64,000 nt of DNA, taken from NCBI RefSeq assembly GCF_036880985.1, contig NZ_JBAJNO010000003.1:186001-250000 (forward strand), read 5' to 3'. How positions within the stretch are numbered: position 1 is the stretch's first letter; each line of letters starts with the position of its first letter. Under the pieces are notes generated by a model. It made no database searches. It was not told the origin of the DNA and worked only from the letters and a program-made list of their open reading frames with translations. This DNA is from Limibacter armeniacum. Lineage in GTDB: Bacteria > Bacteroidota > Bacteroidia > Cytophagales > Flammeovirgaceae. Shown here in pieces: positions 7,972 to 54,285 of this stretch. A program made the translations under genes and the position numbers.

Positions 7972-8748
7972 CTAATCTTTATCTAAATTAATATTAAGGA
8001 GGATCTCTGATTTTACTTTTTTACCATCTAAAATCCCCGGCTCCCATTTACCCATTCCTTTCAAAACAACTCCTATTTGTTTCTTAAGCACAGGCAAGTG
8101 TTTTTCATTGATTGGCTTTAAAATATGGGAACTATCAAAACTCCAATCCAACATTTCCCCTGTATTGTCAATCGTAACAATCACTTCTATATATTGATGC
8201 AAATGCATAGGAATTGTATCCCACCCTTTCGGATAAATTAGGTCCCTTTTTATAAAATACTCTGGATAGGTCATTTTATAAGTAGGGTTTTGATCTAAAT
8301 GCCAATACATATAGGTTTTTGTCTGCCAAGCTGCTAAATAAATACTGTCTGCCTTTTTCTCCATACTATCAATAAAACCTTGACTGAATCGGGATTTTAC
8401 CACACTATCCATATAGTAACCATAGCAATTTCTTTCAACTGTAGTACATGACAACCTGCTATCAAAGTGGATATTCTCTTTTGACCACAGTTCTTTAAGC
8501 TCTTCGTTGTAACGTGGCGTTCGCCCATAATATACTGTAAAAGTCAAGCTATCTTTTTCGGCATCAACTTTTGCCTTTTCTAGCTGCTCAAGACATTCTG
8601 TAGATGAATAATCTAATCCAAATTCCCATATATAGTTTTCGACCAAAGCTTCCTCTTTATCCGAAGTAGTATTTTCAGATTTGTTGCAGCTCACCAGAAG
8701 AACAAGTAAAAGAGATATACTTACGGTAAAATACTTCATCATATTCAA
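7972..8748 (-). CDS. Lipoprotein with TonB-C-like C-terminal domain
   Basis: 258 residues. The signal peptide ends in a lipobox (LLVLLVSC, Cys about 21), so it is probably anchored in a membrane on the periplasmic side. The C-terminal about 80 residues (IEVIVTIDNTGEMLDWSF ... MGKWEPGILDGKKVKSEI) resemble the TonB C-terminal fold, with its usual W-x-PG-x-x-DGK signature. No transmembrane anchor and no proline-rich linker of a true TonB is present. Function is unknown. Monocistronic, convergent with uxaA. Confidence 0.75.
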   Translation of the reverse strand: MNMMKYFTVSISLLLVLLVSCNKSENTTSDKEEALVENYIWEFGLDYSSTECLEQLEKAKVDAEKDSLTFTVYYGRTPRYNEELKELWSKENIHFDSRLSCTTVERNCYGYYMDSVVKSRFSQGFIDSMEKKADSIYLAAWQTKTYMYWHLDQNPTYKMTYPEYFIKRDLIYPKGWDTIPMHLHQYIEVIVTIDNTGEMLDWSFDSSHILKPINEKHLPVLKKQIGVVLKGMGKWEPGILDGKKVKSEILLNINLDKD

Positions 8749-46062: not shown

Positions 46063-46476
46063 TTATTTCAATTTTTTGACGTTGAGATCTTCTGCAACCT
46101 TCTCCCCTAATACCTTTGTCAGATAGCCTAACATTTGCCTGTATTCGTTCTCTGCACTCCTAAATTCCTTCTCTCGCTCCCTACTCTCTTCTACCTGTTT
46201 ACGTAAAAAAGCGATCTCTGAGCGCAACTGAGCAATCATTTCAGACTCATCTATCGATTTATCATCTGTATTTTGATCGCTAATACCGAACAGTTGCTTA
46301 GCGTATTCCAACTCTACAAAGTATCGCACCTGTTTACCACGGTACGGCTCTGCAATAATGCTGTCATTATGCTTATTTTCCTTGAATTTGGCAGCAATTG
46401 TCTTTCTTACCGTAACTTCCGCCTTGCCAGCTAGTTCTGACAGTTCGCTTATCTTGAGATACCTTTTATTGCTCAT
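46063..46476 (-). CDS. HTH DNA-binding protein with coiled coil, replicon backbone
   Basis: 137 residues. An N-terminal helix-turn-helix (about 6-45, LKISELSELAGKAEVTVRKTI) precedes a short strand region and a strongly charged coiled coil (about 75-120, with REREKEFRSAENEYRQ). No known family recognised. Layout resembles small plasmid-borne repressors or partition accessory proteins. Divergent from the membrane protein gene at 46749. The 272-bp gap between them holds repeated TATCGCTAAT-like half-sites next to its start, so it is likely autoregulated. Confidence 0.7.
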   Translation of the reverse strand: MSNKRYLKISELSELAGKAEVTVRKTIAAKFKENKHNDSIIAEPYRGKQVRYFVELEYAKQLFGISDQNTDDKSIDESEMIAQLRSEIAFLRKQVEESREREKEFRSAENEYRQMLGYLTKVLGEKVAEDLNVKKLK

Positions 46477-46488
46477 TTATCAGTTAAA

Positions 46489-46544
46489 TATCGATTAATT
46501 AGCGATATTTTTATCGTTATTTTATTGCTAATTTTATCGCTAAT
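46489..46544. promoter_or_regulatory. Cluster of half-sites TATCGCTAAT upstream of the HTH gene
   Basis: ATTAGCGATA (46498-46507) and TATCGCTAAT (46535-46544) form an inverted pair. TATCGATTAAT (from 46489), TATCGTTAT (about 46512) and TATTGCTAAT (about 46523) lie around and between them. The cluster covers the region just before the start at 46476. Confidence 0.55.
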
Positions 46545-46554
46545 CTATAAAATT

Positions 46555-46615
46555 GCAGTAAATCATCCTAATCGCTCACTGAGCGCAAACTTATTGCACC
46601 CATTAGGATGATTAA
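46555..46615. promoter_or_regulatory. Inverted pair of iteron-like sequences with nested hairpin
   Basis: AATCATCCTAAT (46561-46572) and ATTAGGATGATT (46602-46613) form a perfect 12-bp inverted repeat. The right arm in context, GCACCCATTAGGATGATT, matches the Rep iteron consensus at 52.8-53.1 kb. Between the arms CGCTC/GAGCG (46573-46585) makes a second small hairpin. Confidence 0.6.
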
Positions 46616-46748
46616 GAGCTATTACTTTTGAAACCACTTTTTAGGGAAATCAACAGCTTCTCCTAAAAGAATTTAATTAAAAAAACACTTCCCCTTCCGC
46701 GACCAAACTTCAGGGGAAGCGCTTAAATCAAAATTTATCATTGATCTT

Positions 46749-47909
46749 ATGTCAAAATTACAAAATCCTCTCGAAAAAATCCTCGAAAGAACCAAATACG
46801 AGGATCACCTGCATAGAGCACAAGATCGTTTTGCATGGAAGCCATTTGCTATCAGGTTTGCATCACTCAGAAAAATTGCATCATTGAGTAAGTATCTACT
46901 ACCATTACTCTCCATTGCGACGGCAACTACTTTTCTTTGGACACTACTTGCTACTTCCCTTCCAATATGGCTGGCAATACCTTTGGCACTTCTAATGCTC
47001 ACAGGTTGGGAAACAGCGAAAGCCCAATTGGTACGTATCAGTTCAGAAATGTACTATGGAGGCAGACAAGCTGGTATTGCTTTACTTGTAGTTACATTGT
47101 TTTTTTCAGTTGGAAGTGTAGTGATGAGTATGGAAGGAGCCAAACAGCTTTACAATCTAAGTAACTCATCATTCCAAGAGCTTCAAAAAAGTCACCTGAA
47201 AAGTGTCGATTCTCTTCAAAGTTACTATACTTCAGAAATCCAATCTCTAAAAGAGGAGAAAAAGCAATTCTACCAAAACAATACAGTTTATTTAGGAAAA
47301 GGAAAATATGCGCTAAACCATAAAGTCGCAAAAGCATATGCTGACTATGACAATAGGATTTCCTATCTCCAAAAATTGATGCATACCAAGCAAGGGCAAT
47401 TACAGGATCAATTTAAAGAGCAAAAGTATTTACTCTCTCAAGGTCATCAGTTTAATAGTTTGATATTTGCGGCTGTCGCATGTCTGGTTGATTTACTTAT
47501 TTTACTGACAGGTTGGTTTATTATTTATTTTGACTTTCAGGTGTTGCACGAGCAGCAACTTATTTATAAGTATCAGGCAGTCTCTCCAAACGATCAGCTA
47601 AAGCAATACGCCACGCTCCCATCCACTGTCTCTGACTGGCAATTGGAAACCACTACTTCAGCGAATACTTCATCCGTTAGCCACAAAGAAGAAAGTAATG
47701 CTAGTATTGGATTTAAATTTAATGGTAAAGATGAACCACAAAAAGAAGACAAAGCCGCTTCCCCAAAAATTAAAGTTTCTCCAAGAACAGACTTGGATGG
47801 CCTAATTGGAGCTGTCAGGTCTGGCATTAGAGATTATCGATACTTAATGAAAATTTTTCATGCCAATGTAAAAACTGTTACAGAAGTCATTAACACATAT
47901 GGACAGTAA
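46749..47909 (+). CDS. Membrane protein with long coiled coil, unknown function
   Basis: 386 residues. Predicted membrane helices at about 48-68, 70-86 and 107-128, then a coiled-coil/helical segment (about 140-230), a fourth helix (236-262), a polar low-complexity linker (285-345) and a short conserved-looking basic C-terminal domain (347-386, LIGAVRSGIRDYRYLMKIFH). With both soluble ends outside the helices, the termini probably share the cytoplasm. No family recognised. Lies between iteron-like sites and the palindrome array of the partition region, divergent from an HTH gene. A membrane anchor for the replicon is an attractive but unproven idea. Confidence 0.75.
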   Translation: MSKLQNPLEKILERTKYEDHLHRAQDRFAWKPFAIRFASLRKIASLSKYLLPLLSIATATTFLWTLLATSLPIWLAIPLALLMLTGWETAKAQLVRISSEMYYGGRQAGIALLVVTLFFSVGSVVMSMEGAKQLYNLSNSSFQELQKSHLKSVDSLQSYYTSEIQSLKEEKKQFYQNNTVYLGKGKYALNHKVAKAYADYDNRISYLQKLMHTKQGQLQDQFKEQKYLLSQGHQFNSLIFAAVACLVDLLILLTGWFIIYFDFQVLHEQQLIYKYQAVSPNDQLKQYATLPSTVSDWQLETTTSANTSSVSHKEESNASIGFKFNGKDEPQKEDKAASPKIKVSPRTDLDGLIGAVRSGIRDYRYLMKIFHANVKTVTEVINTYGQ

Positions 47910-47948: not shown

Positions 47949-49321
47949 ATGGTATCAGAATGACACCATGGTTTCTTTTTTGTGATAATGGTATCAATTT
48001 GATACCATGACTTCATATCACTCAATATAAGACGGTAAACCAATTGTAGAAAGTGACAGACCTTTATACTTATTCGAGCAATTTCGATTTTATAGCTTGG
48101 TATCATTTTGATACCATACAATGAAACCTTGATTCAAAAAACTACTAACGCATGGTATCAATTTGAAACCATGACCTATCAACATCTTAATAGATATACA
48201 ATTGATTTAGCTACTAGTATTAAGACCCTCAAAAAATTATTGATAAGATAAATCGTAGAATTATTTTTTAACCAACTACTTCAGGTCTCCTACCCTATTC
48301 AGAATACCTCCCACTTTTCTCTTGATCAAATTTTCAATACTGAATAATTGGTTCATTCTTCAATCAAAAATTGATTTAGCATCTGTTATTAGAATAGGCA
48401 TGTAAAAAGAGTTATCCAAAATGATATTATATGTAAAAGAATATCATGGTATCAATTTGAAACCATGACTTCATATCACTCAATATAAGACGGTAAACCA
48501 ATTGTAGAAAGTGACAGACCTTTATACTTATTCGAGCAATTTCGATCTTATAGCTTGGTATCATTTTGATACCATACAATGAAACCTTGTTTCAAAAAAA
48601 ATACTAACCTATGGTATCATTTTGACACCATGACCTATCAACAACAGAATAGAAATACAATTGATTTAGCTACTTGTATTAAGGCTCTCAAAAAATTATT
48701 GATAAGATTGGCTGTAGAATTATTTTAGAGCGAACTATTACAAGTATAAAAACTACATCGAGTATTCAATCCAGATATTTCCCATTTTTCTCTTGATCAA
48801 ATTTTCAATGTTTAAAATTTGGTTAATTCTTCAATCAAAAATCTATTTAGCTTCTGTTATTGGGATAGTCATGCAAATAGATTCAATCCTAAATTACATT
48901 TAATAACACCATGGTATCAAAATGAAACCATGGGAATCATTACCTCATATTGTCTTCTCTTGACAAAGAATAGAAAATATCAGTAGAAATTATAGATGTA
49001 AAATAGAGTATTGAAACTTGGTGTCATTTTGATACCAAGACTTCTTAATTGTAGCTTTTCATTATGCTATCTTAAGAATAGTATATATTCTATTGGCAAT
49101 TGAAATTGCATTAGGATAAAACTGGATATCATCAGTCACTACATTACTGAATTGGTAATAGCATTAAGATATTTATCTGAAGGTTAGATGAAAATTAAAC
49201 TTGATGAAAGGAATTCATAATATGTTTATGATATAGCCCATGAAGAATAATTTAGAAATAACTTCATTAAAGACTTTAATACAAATATGCTAGTTTAGGT
49301 ATGGTATCAAATTGATACCAT
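47949..49321. repeat. Array of ten 21-bp palindromes (centromere candidate)
   Basis: Sites of form WTGGTRTCA-N3-TGAYACCAW start at 47949, 47988, 48097, 48152, 48446, 48555, 48611, 48911, 49018 and 49301. Copies at 47988 and 49301 are perfect palindromes; others differ by one or two positions, mostly in the right arm (TGAAACCAT, TGACACCAT). Spacing is irregular, which is unlike CRISPR. No ORF covers the region. Position next to parA/parB suggests ParB binding sites. Confidence 0.75.
47988..48880. repeat. Direct duplication of about 430 bp inside the palindrome array
   Basis: The segment at about 47988-48410 recurs at about 48446-48880. Long runs are identical, e.g. from 48009 and from 48467 for over 100 bases with one or two changes; later parts are more diverged. 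The duplication carries three palindromes with it. Confidence 0.7.
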
Positions 49322-49472: not shown

Positions 49473-49910
49473 TTGGATTATTGTCTACAATTAGTCACTG
49501 CTTTCTATAGCAGAAGGTCAGAATACTGGACTTATACCAGAAATAGCTTTGCTATTACAATCACGATTACATTAATACTTACCCTAATCCAGGAAAATAT
49601 TTTATATCCACCTAATCCAAAAATTGACCAACTGATATTGTCAGCATATAGAGAAGCTCCATTTGGAGGATACTGGTTAGGTCTTTATACTGACTTAACT
49701 TGGGAATTAGGTAATACATCTAGAGAAATTTCTGCAAAAGGTATCTATGCAGTAAATAATGATACCTTGGAATTGACAACAGTAAAAGGGAGTTATTTTA
49801 ATGGAGATACAATTAACACCTTTATTTTTGAAGGTAAACATCTTATCGAAGTAAAGAATACTGGAATAAAAGGGCTAGAAATCGAGTTAAATAAGCTACG
49901 TAAAAAATGA
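49473..49910 (+). CDS. Small membrane-anchored protein, possibly frameshifted at its start
   Basis: 145 residues: one membrane helix (about 26-42, NSFAITITITLILTLI), then a soluble beta-rich domain (DLTWELGNTSREISAKGIYAVNN ... INTFIFEGKHLIEVKN). No family recognised. Upstream in another frame, an ATG at 49433 opens a hydrophobic stretch (MLYFGLVTLFIGTIGLLSTI) that stops at 49510, just inside this gene. Joined, the two would make a two-helix protein, so a single-base shift near 49500 is possible. Base composition is low in GC like the surrounding array. Confidence 0.5.
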   Translation: MDYCLQLVTAFYSRRSEYWTYTRNSFAITITITLILTLIQENILYPPNPKIDQLILSAYREAPFGGYWLGLYTDLTWELGNTSREISAKGIYAVNNDTLELTTVKGSYFNGDTINTFIFEGKHLIEVKNTGIKGLEIELNKLRKK

Positions 49911-50453: not shown

Positions 50454-51446
50454 GTGATGACAAACACTGATGTTATTAATTTTTTAAAGCGCAATCCGTC
50501 TTTATCTATTTCCGGATTGGAAAAAGAGGCTGAAATTCCTGCCTCTACCTTATCAAAAGTTATGTCTGGCTCTAGGGTACTCAATGACGAGCATCTTGGA
50601 AGACTGGAACCAATTCTTAAACGATATGGCTATCACGAAACTATGGGAGCAAAAGTAATCAGCATTGTAAACAACAAAGGTGGCGTTGCCAAAACCACTA
50701 CCTGTTCAAACCTTGGAAGGGCATTACACCTAGAAGGATATAAAGTTTTGATGTGTGACCTAGACCAACAGGGTAACCTGTCTCAAACTTATGGTATAGA
50801 TGCTCCTGAAGATGAACTTTACCAAAGTCTTTCTTTTGCCATCAATGCGCCTCTCCATAACTGTATTATGGAAATATTTGAAGGATTGGATATTTGTCCC
50901 TCTTCAATCGCATTGGGACAGGCTGCTCTTGACCTTCAGAATAACCAACTGACAGGTTATAAACGAATGGCTAAAGTATTGGAGCAAGTTAAGAATGAGT
51001 ATGACTTCATCTTGATTGACTGTCCACCTTCACTAGACATCCTGACAGGTACTGCGCTCGTTGCGTCTGATTCAGTTATTCTTCCTGTACAACCAGAAGA
51101 GCATGCCGTAAAAGGTTTACGCAATGTATTTAACCTGATTGAGCAAATGAAAGACCTTAACAGCCGTATTCAGGTTGACGGGATTCTTTACACATTGGTA
51201 AATCCAAATACCACTTTGCATAAGAGCTATATGGAAGCTATTAAGGAAGGTATGCCGCATGTAAGGTCATTTGAGGCAATGATCAGAAGGAGCATTTCCA
51301 TCCCTGAAGCAACAGCTACCCATCAGAGTATCTTTGATTATGACAAAAACTCTAATGGCTCAAAGGATTATAAAGCCTTCGCTCAGGAATTGCTTGGTAA
51401 AGTAAAAAAGAAGAAAGACAAGAAAGAAAAAGTAGCAAATGGCTAA
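50454..51446 (+). CDS. parA: ParA-type partition ATPase with N-terminal HTH
   Basis: 330 residues from GTG at 50454 (ATG follows at 50457). N-terminal HTH-like region (about 5-60, SISGLEKEAEIPASTLSKVMSG), then a deviant Walker A motif KGGVAKTT (75-82), Walker A'-like LMCDLDQQGNLS and Walker B DFILIDCPPSLD. The HTH plus ATPase layout is that of type Ia partition proteins, which also repress their own operon. It segregates the replicon by forming nucleoid-bound ATP-dependent gradients with ParB. Its last eight bases overlap parB, so the pair is co-translated. Confidence 0.93.
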   Translation: MMTNTDVINFLKRNPSLSISGLEKEAEIPASTLSKVMSGSRVLNDEHLGRLEPILKRYGYHETMGAKVISIVNNKGGVAKTTTCSNLGRALHLEGYKVLMCDLDQQGNLSQTYGIDAPEDELYQSLSFAINAPLHNCIMEIFEGLDICPSSIALGQAALDLQNNQLTGYKRMAKVLEQVKNEYDFILIDCPPSLDILTGTALVASDSVILPVQPEEHAVKGLRNVFNLIEQMKDLNSRIQVDGILYTLVNPNTTLHKSYMEAIKEGMPHVRSFEAMIRRSISIPEATATHQSIFDYDKNSNGSKDYKAFAQELLGKVKKKKDKKEKVANG

Positions 51447-52344
51447 GAAAAAATTCAATACATCAAACCTTGTATCAGAAGTAGGATCAGCGGCATCCAA
51501 TATCACAGGAAAGTTTTCTCCTTCACCAAGTGTACCAACAGGTGACAGAATTGAGAAAGCCGTAAGGGACAATATCAAAATATTGCCCGAATTGGAGTTC
51601 TTTATCCGTAAACTGGGAGAATCTGAGTACAACCTGCTAAAAGAAGATATCAGTAAAAACGGCTGTAAGGAATCCATTAAACTATGGAGACGTGAGGATG
51701 ACTTTGTGATTGTAGATGGTCATCACCGCTATCAGATCTGCCAGGAGCTTGGTATTGATTTCAAGACAGAGTCATTGGATTTTGCATCAATCGAGGATGT
51801 GAAAATCTTTATGGCAAAGTTACAGTTAGGCAGAAGAAACCTAACTCCCCAAGAATCAAGCTACCTGAGAGGTATGCAATACGGTTTGTCTCGTAAAACA
51901 GCTGGAGGTATTCAAGAAGATAGTGGACAGGGTAGAACCCGAACATTACTGGCTCAGGAGTATGGAGTGAGTGAAGCCACTATTATGAGAGATTACAAAC
52001 TTTATAGAGGGTTGGAAAAAGTAGGGGAAGCAATCAAGCAAGACTACTTGAGCGGTGATTCCTTCCTTAGAAAAATGCATATCGAATACATTGCAGTTGA
52101 GGAACTGTTGGATGTACAAAGGTTTATTTATTTCATCGAAAGGGGTGGAAGTCTTGAGGAGTATAAAGCCCAATCGCAACACGGAACTCAACAAATTCAA
52201 ACTGCACCTAACGGGTCAAAAAGCAAACCTAGCTATTTTGAGGCTTTTGCGAGTAAATTTGATAAGGAGTTAAAGGTCGCTGATACTGAAAGAAAGCAAG
52301 AAATGAAGCATATGCTACAGAGAATGCTCGAAAAGATTGGCTAA
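51439..52344 (+). CDS. parB: ParB-family partition protein
   Basis: 301 residues. A basic N-terminal tail (1-35) probably contacts ParA. The ParB/Srx-like domain (about 45-145) has FVIVDGHHRYQICQELG where chromosomal ParB has GERRxRA, so CTP use is uncertain. An HTH region follows (about 170-205, LAQEYGVSEATIMRDYKLYRG), then a charged C-terminal tail (270-301) for dimerisation. Overlaps parA by eight bases. The ten palindromes at 47.9-49.3 kb are the most likely binding sites. Confidence 0.88.
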   Translation: MAKKKFNTSNLVSEVGSAASNITGKFSPSPSVPTGDRIEKAVRDNIKILPELEFFIRKLGESEYNLLKEDISKNGCKESIKLWRREDDFVIVDGHHRYQICQELGIDFKTESLDFASIEDVKIFMAKLQLGRRNLTPQESSYLRGMQYGLSRKTAGGIQEDSGQGRTRTLLAQEYGVSEATIMRDYKLYRGLEKVGEAIKQDYLSGDSFLRKMHIEYIAVEELLDVQRFIYFIERGGSLEEYKAQSQHGTQQIQTAPNGSKSKPSYFEAFASKFDKELKVADTERKQEMKHMLQRMLEKIG

Positions 52345-53133
52345 TAGAACCCAAAAAGATGAATATAGGCTTAGAAAAACACTCAAAAGGATGAACTTCA
52401 TGTATCTTTTTCATCCTTTTGAGTGCAATAAGCCTTTTTTTATATCCTATTGGGGTGTTCAAATAGTACCAAACAGTCTCAACTAATAAGAAATTTCGAC
52501 TTAATTGGTGTAAATATATCTTTTAAGGTATAATTCTAAGATCACTTTAACCTTTAAATACACCAAAAAGGATGTTATTACACCGAGTTAGATGAATCTG
52601 GATAGTATAATTGTTCATCAATTTGATTTAGGGGCTTTAATTTTTAGAAAAAGAAAAATATTGAAAAAAGAATTCATCCCAATCGGAACAGTTTATACCT
52701 ATAATTATAGAGTTTGTAATTACTTTATAGTATTTATTATTTATGTAAGCCATTTCATCATGATTTACAGGTAGTTAAGGGGCTTAAATGTACCGAAATA
52801 GATGAATCACAGCACCCTGTTAGATGAATATCTACACCCATTCAGATGATGGTATTACACTTAAAAGGATGAATATCTACACCCATTCAGATGAAAAAAT
52901 GCACCAAAAAAGTCGAATATTATTTTAATGTTCCAAAAAAGATGAACTTATTGCACTCAAAAGGATGAATAATTACGGCTCAGGTATCACTAGATGAGAA
53001 TTGATAAAAAAATACCAGCTTAAATAAATAACCTATTTTCATCCTTTTCGGTGGTTTTTACTATTAACCAAACTTTTTACTATCCTTTTGGGAGCTTTTC
53101 AAGAGCTGAAAGCTTCAGGAACCAAAGACATCC
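52345..53133. repeat. Origin region with iteron array
   Basis: Consensus about RCACYNAAAAGGATGAA. Direct copies start at 52351, 52560, 52578, 52791, 52812, 52834, 52857, 52879, 52901, 52931 and 52953; inverted copies lie at 52410-52425, 53037-53053 and 53079-53095. From 52791 to 52953 spacing is 21-23 bp apart from one 30-bp step, that is two helical turns. AT-rich sequence surrounds the array and the initiator gene follows directly. Typical of an iteron-controlled replication origin. Confidence 0.88.
52380..52436 (+). terminator. Terminator after parB built from two inverted iterons
   Basis: CACTCAAAAGGATGAA (52380-52395) and its exact complement (52410-52425) are followed by a T-run at 52434-52441. 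It can end the parAB transcript, and each arm is also a Rep iteron. Confidence 0.7.
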
Positions 53134-54285
53134 ATGAAATTCATCAAAAGAAAAAAGCTAATCAGGAAATCGAATAAACTGATTAACGCCAAAGAGAATA
53201 CACCACTAACAGCCCTTGAAAGAAAGCTCATGCTATATTCAATTGCTGAAGTAGACAGTGACGGTAAAGTAATATTTCGGATTCAGGATTTATATGGTAC
53301 AAGTAAGCTCAACACGAGCCATTACCGTAACGTCAGAAAAGCTGTAGAAAACCTCCTCAATGTAAAGGTGATTGTAGAGGAAGGAGATGTCTCGGATGAG
53401 GATTGGAGCATTAAGGGGATGAACGTGTTTGATGTGATAGAGGCAAGTAGGGCAGGAGGCAGGATTGCGGCAAAATTTACTCAGTCAATGATGCCTCACA
53501 TCATAAACCTGAAAAGAAACTATACCACTTACCTTTATGATTCCGTTTCCTTGTTTCGTTCAGATTTTAGTATCAGGATTTATGAGTTGTTGATGCAAGG
53601 AATCGATAGGTATGGTAAGAGGGAGTTTGATGTGGAGGACTTGAAGCATAAGCTTAGCCTTAATAACCTGAAAACATATCAGAACTTTAATCAACTACGG
53701 ACTAAAGTATTGGATAAAGCCTGTAATGAGATAACAGAGAAATCTGACATCAATGTCTCTTGGGAAATATCCAAAAAGGTGGGCAAGAAAGTGACAGCCA
53801 TTACTTTCTTTATGAAGAGAAAGGAGAAAGAAGGTGATGGAGAGCAGCTGAATGTACTCAAAGACAGTGGCAATGATAAGCAGCTTGATGCGCTAATGGC
53901 ATTGGGTTTCTCAGAAGAGCAGGTTAGGCTTATTCTCAATATGAAGAAAAGCCCAAGTTCAGGACCAAGAGAGGAACCTATTGAAGAAGCTGAAGTAGTG
54001 GACGAAGCTGATACCCAGGCAGGAGGACAACAGTCTTTATTTGGTGAAACAAAGGCTGCCGATGGAGAGTTGGAAGCCAAGCAAAAACGCCTTGTCAGCA
54101 GGTTGAAGCAGTTAGGCTTGGAGAGCCCTCTTATCAAGAAGACCTTGGAAACGACGGGAGCTTCTAAAGAATCAGGAATTTGGAAGATTCTTTATGACCT
54201 TAATATTGCGATGAAGGACAATACTGTCAAAAACCCCAAAGCTTACCTTGAAAAGGTATTATTTCAGCAATATGGCATCAAATAA
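53134..54285 (+). CDS. rep: Replication initiator, Rep_3 (RepB/RepE) family
   Basis: 383 residues. Two winged-helix parts (about 1-220) carry the Rep_3 hallmarks LINAKENTPLTALERKLMLY at the start and FRSDFSIRIYELLMQGIDRYGKREFDVEDLKHKL in the centre (cited in two parts: FRSDFSIRIYELL, then the KREFDVEDLK segment). A polar, acidic linker (about 265-310) leads to a helical C-terminal domain (315-383). It binds the iterons upstream to open the origin and recruit helicase. The inverted iterons at 53037-53095, just before its start, suggest autorepression. Confidence 0.93.
   Translation: MKFIKRKKLIRKSNKLINAKENTPLTALERKLMLYSIAEVDSDGKVIFRIQDLYGTSKLNTSHYRNVRKAVENLLNVKVIVEEGDVSDEDWSIKGMNVFDVIEASRAGGRIAAKFTQSMMPHIINLKRNYTTYLYDSVSLFRSDFSIRIYELLMQGIDRYGKREFDVEDLKHKLSLNNLKTYQNFNQLRTKVLDKACNEITEKSDINVSWEISKKVGKKVTAITFFMKRKEKEGDGEQLNVLKDSGNDKQLDALMALGFSEEQVRLILNMKKSPSSGPREEPIEEAEVVDEADTQAGGQQSLFGETKAADGELEAKQKRLVSRLKQLGLESPLIKKTLETTGASKESGIWKILYDLNIAMKDNTVKNPKAYLEKVLFQQYGIK

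Follow-up and report, generated by a model that had tools for sequence, protein, structure and literature searches.

Several described ParABS partition systems resemble the locus reported here. The F plasmid carries SopABC, and its sopC is an iterated inverted-repeat centromere separate from the origin. In the Bsr partition systems of the Burkholderiales, several replicons that share a cell carry related ParABS systems, each of which is narrowly specific and has a palindromic parS of its own (PMC5450999). This narrow specificity is thought to prevent incompatibility (PMC5450999). For the switch between ParB and Noc it has been shown by experiment that a few residues of the DNA-binding domain decide which palindrome is bound (PMC7383237). 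On the second chromosome of Flammeovirga, ParA, ParB and parS are named, without a parS sequence in the relevant sections of that paper (PMC8653839). In the literature searched, including the relevant sections of PMC8653839 and PMC13342612, no plasmid parS sequence is described for the Bacteroidota. The evolution of compatible plasmid centromeres is hard to study because few natural ParB–parS series are known.

Here we analyse a stretch of 64,000 nucleotides from Limibacter armeniacum (the window), comprising bases 186001-250000 of contig C3 (368,806 bp), the 369-kb replicon of a genome of 8.04 Mb in 9 contigs. The C3 replicon has its own parA, parB and Rep_3 gene, and upstream of these lies an array of palindromes. 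We consider it very likely (a probability of about 0.92) that this array is a type I ParABS centromere (parS), belonging to a replicon-specific family and bound by the neighbouring ParB; there are no binding or stability data. The relevant features are the following.

47949..49321, no strand: parS-like array of ten 21-bp palindromes, ATGGTATCA-N3-TGATACCAT, found by motif search of window and genome
47949..47969, plus strand: palindrome 1, 0 mismatches
47988..48008, plus strand: palindrome 2, perfect 9-bp arms
48097..48117, plus strand: palindrome 3, found by motif search
48152..48172, plus strand: palindrome 4, 1 mismatch to the consensus quoted in the earlier note
48446..48466, plus strand: palindrome 5, 1 mismatch, duplicate of copy 2
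48555..48575, plus strand: palindrome 6, duplicate of copy 3
48611..48631, plus strand: palindrome 7, duplicate of copy 4
48911..48931, plus strand: palindrome 8, 1 mismatch
49018..49038, plus strand: palindrome 9, found by motif search
49301..49321, plus strand: palindrome 10, perfect 9-bp arms
50454..51446, plus strand: parA, P-loop ATPase (profile matches to AAA_31 and CbiA), starting with GTG at 50454 or ATG at 50457
51439..52344, plus strand: parB, a divergent ParB with the recognition helix S178-EATIMR-D185
52375..53100, no strand: short repeats CACTCAAAAGGATGAA and variants in both orientations, probable Rep iterons (role inferred), unrelated in sequence to the palindromes
53134..54285, plus strand: rep, Rep_3 initiator (Rep3_N 3.7e-25, Rep3_C 1.2e-15)

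The earlier note, made from the sequence alone, had described ten irregularly spaced copies of WTGGTRTCA-N3-TGAYACCAW upstream of parAB. Copies, positions and irregular spacing held: a search of the window with up to 3 mismatches returned exactly ten 21-bp matches between 47949 and 49321, at the start positions listed above, compared to a mean of 0.47 and a maximum of 4 in 100 shuffles. The consensus held in part, as seven of the ten copies fit it exactly and three have one mismatch; palindromes 4, 5 and 8, which read TGAAACCAT, are these copies. The consensus of the array is ATGGTATCA-NNN-TGATACCAT, and only positions 1, 6 (in one copy), 16, 21 and the central N3 vary. With 28% GC the array is poorer in GC than the window (42%). 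A duplication of about 460 bp has turned copies 2-4 into copies 5-7 (157 nt at 97%, 151 nt at 84% and 107 nt at 84% identity). The number of independent palindrome copies is therefore only about seven. The array is flanked by a gene at 46749-47909, which looks by eye like a membrane protein gene, and by a hypothetical open reading frame at 49473-49910. The latter is followed by parA, parB, the block of other short repeats and the Rep_3 initiator gene. The array is located 1.1-2.5 kb upstream of parA.

As a separate observation, C3, C4 and C6 each have near rep and parAB a gene pair (46063-47909 of the window; L021:1628-3342; L023:11267-13201) that encodes a putative DNA-binding protein, 135-137 residues long in the three cases, beside a protein of 378-448 residues which looks membrane-bound by eye. 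A similar protein of 390 residues adjoins parB in a relative from another genus (L146:10057-11229).

Within the genome the motif is unique to the array. We searched all contigs with TGGTRTCA-N3-TGAHACCA, allowing up to 2 mismatches, and with a control pattern. All places without mismatch are inside the C3 array. Outside the array there is one place with 1 mismatch (on C9), and on the forward strand there are 21 places with 2 mismatches on C1, C3, C4, C8 and C9; these are scattered, no pair being closer than 9 kb. Together, the off-array matches with 1-2 mismatches on the forward strand number 22, whereas the control pattern gave 5 on the forward and 8 on the reverse strand. According to the earlier note a motif scattered over all replicons at random would have refuted a centromere. 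This was not observed, as elsewhere only these loose matches exist.

The claim that the motif differs from the chromosomal parS also held. The genome has the chromosomal parS TGTTCCACGTGGAACA on C9 at position 2652459, and a copy with one mismatch 183 bp further on. In the genome search for the chromosomal family TGTTNCACGTGNAACA these were the only two matches with at most 1 mismatch, both on C9. The only match on C3 has 2 mismatches and is situated at 233542, outside the array. We therefore rejected the possibility that the motif is a chromosomal parS. It may be added that the two large contigs C8 (2.84 Mb) and C9 (3.51 Mb) both carry a ParA-like gene, and that the canonical parS (at most 1 mismatch) is present only on C9.

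The location of parA and parB given in the earlier note held, and the two genes overlap by 8 bp. ParA matches AAA_31 with an E-value of 4e-49, carries a KGGVAKTT motif and meets the criterion of a deviant-Walker P-loop ATPase. About 65 residues precede the ATPase domain and have by eye the look of a helix-turn-helix. ParB is more difficult to classify. The protein has no match in Pfam (E ≤ 0.01) or NCBIfam and only weak matches in PHROGs, to ParB-like and unknown proteins (best 2.6e-09). A profile of the ParB family gave nothing useful against PDB sequences. Pfam ParB_N matches three of six family members weakly (best 0.00073) and the window protein not at all. The AF2 model (62 sequences, pLDDT 85) has its best fold matches in ParB, Noc, KorB and Spo0J, both with Foldseek and with VIA-align 2. 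The latter gives ParB, Noc and KorB Z-scores of about 9-10, partly for single domains; both domains together superimpose with a high rmsd because they swing differently. We call the fold ParB-like because the N-terminal domain (about 90 residues, rmsd 2.6-2.8) and, separately, the DNA-binding part (Z 5-7) match. In the latter comparison residues 136-252 matched Noc bound to NBS (6y93) with Z 7.1, where the safe level of the tool is 8, the KorB–operator complex with 5.4 and SopB–DNA (3mky) with 5.2. The comparison shows that the protein, as predicted by the model, has an N-terminal ParB/Srx fold and a helix-turn-helix DNA-binding part. The helices of the helix-turn-helix in the model are 162-175 and 179-195; the covarying residues described below thus lie within the opening turns of the recognition helix. 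In the C-terminal region, where a ParB would have its dimerisation domain, the model has helices at 266-280 and 283-300, and the last 50 residues are barely covered in the fold comparison.

Of the features of a CTP-dependent ParB clamp, the Box II motif GxxR, as defined in PMC12704722, is kept as G94-H-H-R97, and G94 and R97 are invariant in the 62 sequences. In the alignment residues 93-97 read DGHHR where Caulobacter ParB has AGERR, that is, H95-H96 replace E-R. Serine kinase and sulfiredoxin folds are among the weaker structural matches of the model. Because of DGHHR and these folds the nucleotide of this ParB may not be CTP. The nucleotide of a ParB cannot be predicted from its sequence (PMC12704722). 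The canonical ParA-binding motif LG-R/K-GL is absent from the window ParB when read by eye; P1 ParB likewise lacks it (PMC12704722).

The genome encodes paralogues of ParB on C2 (45% identity in the search), C4, C1 and C6 and twice on C7, and paralogues of ParA on C2, C4, C1 and C6, with more distant ones on C8 and C9. A de novo palindrome search around the parAB paralogues shows that C1, C2, C4 and C6 each have a palindrome family of their own:

C2: AAGTGGTCA-N3-TGACCACTT, 5 copies (4 exact, 1 with 1 mismatch)
C4: AAAGTGYCA-N3-TGRCACTTT, 6 copies (4 exact, 2 with 2 mismatches)
C6: AAAGTGACA-TGCA-TGTCACTTT, 3 copies, with a 4-bp spacer
C1: GGGACA-ATT-TGACCC, 12 copies (11 exact, 1 with 1 mismatch), in direct repeats of about 102 bp

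In the genome-wide search, the only matches of a family outside its own contig were places with 2 mismatches on C8 and C9. On the forward strand these number 3 for the C2 family (control 1) and 7 for the C4 family (control 15), and there are none for the C6 and C1 families. The de novo search gave no clear family at C7 or around the parA genes of C8 and C9. On C7 (57,727 bp) two ParB genes with the same scores are 29,745 bp apart, and the repeat tables of the two loci (L024 and L025) match at a constant offset; a unit of about 29 kb is probably present twice, either because the plasmid is a dimer or through duplication in the assembly. The criterion of an iterated or palindromic, replicon-specific parS near parAB is met by the C3 array.

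The palindromes could instead be operators through which ParB or ParA controls the transcription of nearby genes. In favour of this, some copies on C4 and C6 are located just upstream of parA or parB, and ParB paralogues such as KorB are gene regulators (PMC12704722). On the other hand, a hypothetical open reading frame separates the nearest copy in the window from parA, which starts 1.1 kb further downstream, all copies on C1 (12) and C2 (5) are downstream of parB, and ten to twelve iterated copies are, as we infer, more than an operator needs. We consider operators unlikely, and a role as operator only was set aside on account of the downstream arrays of C1 and C2. As a second alternative, the palindromes might be the iterons of the Rep_3 initiator and thus belong to the replication origin. 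In favour of this, plasmids of the Rep_3 type use iterated sites, and rep is found 3.8 kb downstream of the last copy. Against this, distinct short repeats adjoin rep in the window, C2, C4 and C6 have other direct-repeat families near rep besides the palindromes, and the palindromes covary with the helix of ParB, as described below. This alternative appears very unlikely to us, and it was set aside on account of the separate repeats.

A tblastn search with the window ParB returned 77 plasmid records, including 28 from Persicobacter, 8 from Klebsiella, 7 each from Aureibacter and Runella, 6 from Spirosoma and 4 each from Flammeovirga and Emticicia. Within the order, 50 of the 194 genomes searched have a relative at E ≤ 1e-10. 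From the scan of genome contigs the best 80 loci, mostly from Cytophagales, were kept out of 290 relatives. Palindrome families with at least 3 copies were detected in 23 of 124 loci and in none of 620 shuffles; there is redundancy among the 124 loci, L116 being a repeat of C2. A second method gave families of at least 4 copies in 22 of 123 loci and in none of 492 shuffles; the families found in this way include AT-rich noise and repeats of other kinds (e.g. L056, L094, L095, L100). In the relatives, mainly those from Cytophagales, one layout recurs: arms of about 9 bp, an inner dinucleotide which is mostly CA (in some cases AA) and an N3, rarely N4, spacer.

We then compared half-sites and recognition helices. 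The half-sites of 51 loci were picked by eye from lists of palindromes, at a stage when the helices had not yet been set side by side; as an exception, six ParBs of one alignment had been viewed before the half-sites were recorded. Bases are numbered outward from the spacer, base 1 being A, and the rules were counted in 50 systems (L028 excluded). All 42 systems with Arg at residue 184 have C at base 2, and all 8 with Asn, Thr or Leu there have A. At residue 180, Lys goes with GG at bases 5-4 (24/24) and Arg with TG at these bases (9/11, KG in 2), whereas at bases 4-3 Asn goes with CC (6/6), Ser with TT (3/3) and Ala with C/A then T (6/6). Residue 183 corresponds to base 6: Arg is found with T (16/17), Lys with G (18) or A (4), and Met and Leu with G (8/8).

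This covariation also stands out among all columns of the protein. In 36 systems below 80% ParB identity, residues 180, 184, 179 and 183 rank first to fourth of 226 columns by the summed mutual-information z versus the half-site. By the largest single z, residues 184, 180 and 183 are the top three, 179 is tenth, and the N-terminal columns 59 and 128 are fourth and fifth. Common descent might produce such a pattern. However, the correlation between half-site distance and helix match in 630 pairs is r = -0.73, and the partial correlation given the identity outside the helix-turn-helix is likewise -0.73, whereas the partial correlation with overall ParB identity given the helix match is 0.003. 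Of the 485 pairs below 40% identity, 20 share a helix key; their half-sites are closer than those of the remaining pairs by 2.05 of 6 bases, which none of 5000 permutations reached. Due to the partial correlations and the permutations phylogeny was rejected as the cause of the covariation.

The helices of the genome itself are SEATIMRD (C3), GEKTIRRD (C2), SERTIMRD (C4), SEKTIRRD (C1) and TTRTIKRN (C6). The co-resident C1 and C2 agree throughout residues 179-185. Their palindromes are nevertheless different, with G versus T at base 6 and with different outer arms, and C1 violates the rule for residue 183 in having Arg with G instead of T. Since the two share the helix key and have different palindromes, they might be separated by residue 178, by other contacts or by outer bases, or C1 is simply an exception. 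C1 and L028 were excluded from the training of the code. If the code is true, changing the helix of the window ParB from SEATIMRD to GEKTIRRD, the helix of C2, would shift its preference to AGTGGTCA-N3-TGACCACT, and R184N would change base 2 from C to A.

The relation between helix and site was also examined in loci which had not been used before. The ParB of locus L117, from another genus of the same family, has all eight helix residues of the window ParB and is 65% identical to it. The wider DNA of this locus (L146), which was fetched afterwards, contains six matches to the window motif (4 with 0, 1 with 1 and 1 with 3 mismatches), where 0.13 were expected. All are located upstream of its parA (at 8062), by 0.7-4.1 kb. 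For the larger test we started from 112 unassigned loci; without 13 that are near-identical to training loci and 31 duplicates 68 remained, and the helix key of 51 is in the code. At least one predicted site (at most 1 mismatch in 12 positions) was found in 32 of the 51 loci. The sites total 43, L146 contributing 5, versus a permuted mean of 10.8 and a maximum of 29 in 20000 permutations; the permutations can return a locus's own key, which raised the permuted mean. The predicted site was absent in 19 of the 51 loci, and the code had no entry for the helix of 17 of the 68 ParBs.

A further set consists of 14 loci on complete plasmids of Persicobacter psychrovividus and Aureibacter tunicatorum, of which pPP8 was in the training set. 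On pPP1 (L028), which is outside the training, the predicted AGGACA site was found as TAAAGGACAAAATGTCCTTTA together with one further copy. This plasmid also has nine even palindromes like CGACAAACGTTTGTCG, 0.7-5.7 kb downstream of parB and outside the ParB code; they were set aside as its site, as the helix predicted AGGACA instead. On pPP3 (helix SPKSVRNN) we found AGTGGTAA six times. Five other plasmids gave these sites:

pPP6, helix SPRSIMND: ATGTGCAA, two or three copies
pPP7, helix GKATISRD: AGTTCTCA, two or three copies
pPP10, helix SERTIERW: AACCGACA, two or three copies, with C and not T at base 5
pAT2, helix GRATLNRD: AAGTATCA, two or three copies
pAT4, helix SSRTIFED: about AAGGTGCA, two or three copies

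Two or three copies is a number which shuffles also reach with the same method; at bases 2 and 4 the sites of these five plasmids follow the rules. In 6 of the 14 loci (L186, L187, L193, L194, L195, L196) a clear family of the layout is missing: pPP4, pAT1, pAT5, pAT6 and pAT7 have none, and pPP9 has another layout. For pAT1 and pAT7 a predicted site existed and was not found, L193 and L196 being the two failed predictions. The eight helices seen in P. psychrovividus are all distinct, and so are the six in A. tunicatorum.

With these data a third alternative can be judged, namely that the link to ParB is accidental and the palindromes either serve some other regulator or nuclease or are a mobile element in decay. 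In its favour, part of the array is a segmental duplication. However, the duplicated segments agree better inside the palindromes (60 of 63 bases) than outside (214 of 239), which is weak evidence alone, the palindromes recur in the relative from another genus with the same helix, and both the covariation and the held-out prediction argue against an accidental link. We regard it as very unlikely that the palindromes are unconnected to ParB and keep to the centromere.

The code also allowed us to ask where the sites are located. In 91 non-redundant loci with a code entry, 70 of them with a site and training loci included, the density per kb is 0.54 in parB and 0.69 in the next 1 kb, compared to 0.10 in the 1.1 kb that precede parB and 0.16 in the part from 1.1 to 3.5 kb upstream of it. 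Between 1 and 3.5 kb downstream the density is 0.05, and in the far flanks 0.014-0.020. Inside parB there are 44 sites in 37 of the 91 loci, and 43 of these are at codons 143-204, just before the helix-turn-helix. They are in one reading phase in 39 of 44 cases, often encoding KGQNDP-like peptides, and sometimes there are two or three copies 42-63 bp apart (L041, L061, L079, L105, L106, L114 and others). The linker peptide is therefore partly dictated by the DNA site. In several such loci the same site family is also found outside parB (e.g. L042, L045, L084). The motif search of the window gave no site inside its parB gene.

We suggest the following mechanism. The array would serve as the centromere of the 369-kb low-copy replicon. 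A ParB dimer (gene at 51439-52344) would bind every 21-bp palindrome by inserting a recognition helix into each of its half-sites (TGGTATCA), and the ten sites could nucleate a partition complex. The ParA ATPase (50454-51446) would then move this complex over the nucleoid, whereby each daughter cell receives a copy. Physical binding, spreading, movement driven by ParA and a need of the array for stability are all inferred. Residues 179, 180, 183 and 184 of the helix would set much of the site specificity. Co-resident paralogues should not cross-react because their palindromes differ and these four residues mostly differ; the avoidance of incompatibility is likewise an inference. C1 and C2, which have residues 179-185 in common, would have to be told apart in some other way. 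The inference of the earlier note that the array is a centromere bound by ParB is thus supported by replicon-specificity, helix covariation, held-out prediction and the ParB-like fold, with binding itself still inferred. That it is of a new type held in part: the site family looks new, whereas ParABS systems with iterated palindromic parS are known.

A bolder reading is also likely when taken as a whole. Plasmids of Cytophagales and their neighbours may share one ParB scaffold with a near-modular helix-to-DNA code. This would let them evolve centromeres without cross-recognition, and five or more related plasmids could thereby coexist in a cell; in many of them the centromere would also be inside parB. 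A centromere in the linker before the helix-turn-helix would tie the protein and its binding site together in one gene. Neither the site family nor the helix-to-DNA code nor the frequent embedding in parB was found in the literature searched, which did not reach most subscription papers and bioRxiv. The family provides dozens of natural ParB–site pairs that differ in few helix residues, the code predicts sites in unseen plasmids, and swap experiments become possible. It is also a possible source of orthogonal ParB–parS pairs for DNA labelling and of partition parts for Bacteroidota.

Chromosomal ParB–parS shares with the C3 system the ParB fold and a palindromic site, but the chromosomal site of this genome is TGTTCCACGTGGAACA on C9 and the plasmid sites are unrelated to it in sequence. 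The switch between ParB and Noc is the nearest experimental precedent in the literature searched (PMC7383237). Residues 179 and 184 of the window ParB align with Caulobacter R173, which determines specificity, and N178, which contacts parS, although this alignment of the helix-turn-helix is weak (domain score 1.0 bit). In that case there is one switch between two sites, whereas the C3 family has many half-sites and rests on natural covariation only.

The Bsr systems are similar in that several replicons carry related systems, each with its own palindromic site. They differ in their 16-bp palindromes with a central CG (PMC5450999), while the sites of the C3 family are about 21 bp long and mostly have CA and TG on either side of a central N3; no helix-to-base code for Bsr is given in the sections of PMC5450999 that bear on it. 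SopABC, a type Ia ParABS system with the sopC array, has like C3 an N-terminally extended ParA and a ParB with a helix-turn-helix, and the iterated centromere is a further likeness. Its closest look-alike is C1, whose 12 palindromes are part of direct repeats of about 102 bp. C3 differs from SopABC in the palindrome sequence, the 3-bp spacer, the irregular spacing and the position of the array upstream of parA, and the ParBs are hardly related, SopB–DNA matching the DNA-binding part only weakly. By analogy we suggest that the C3 system may work like SopABC and like the multi-replicon Bsr systems (PMC5450999).
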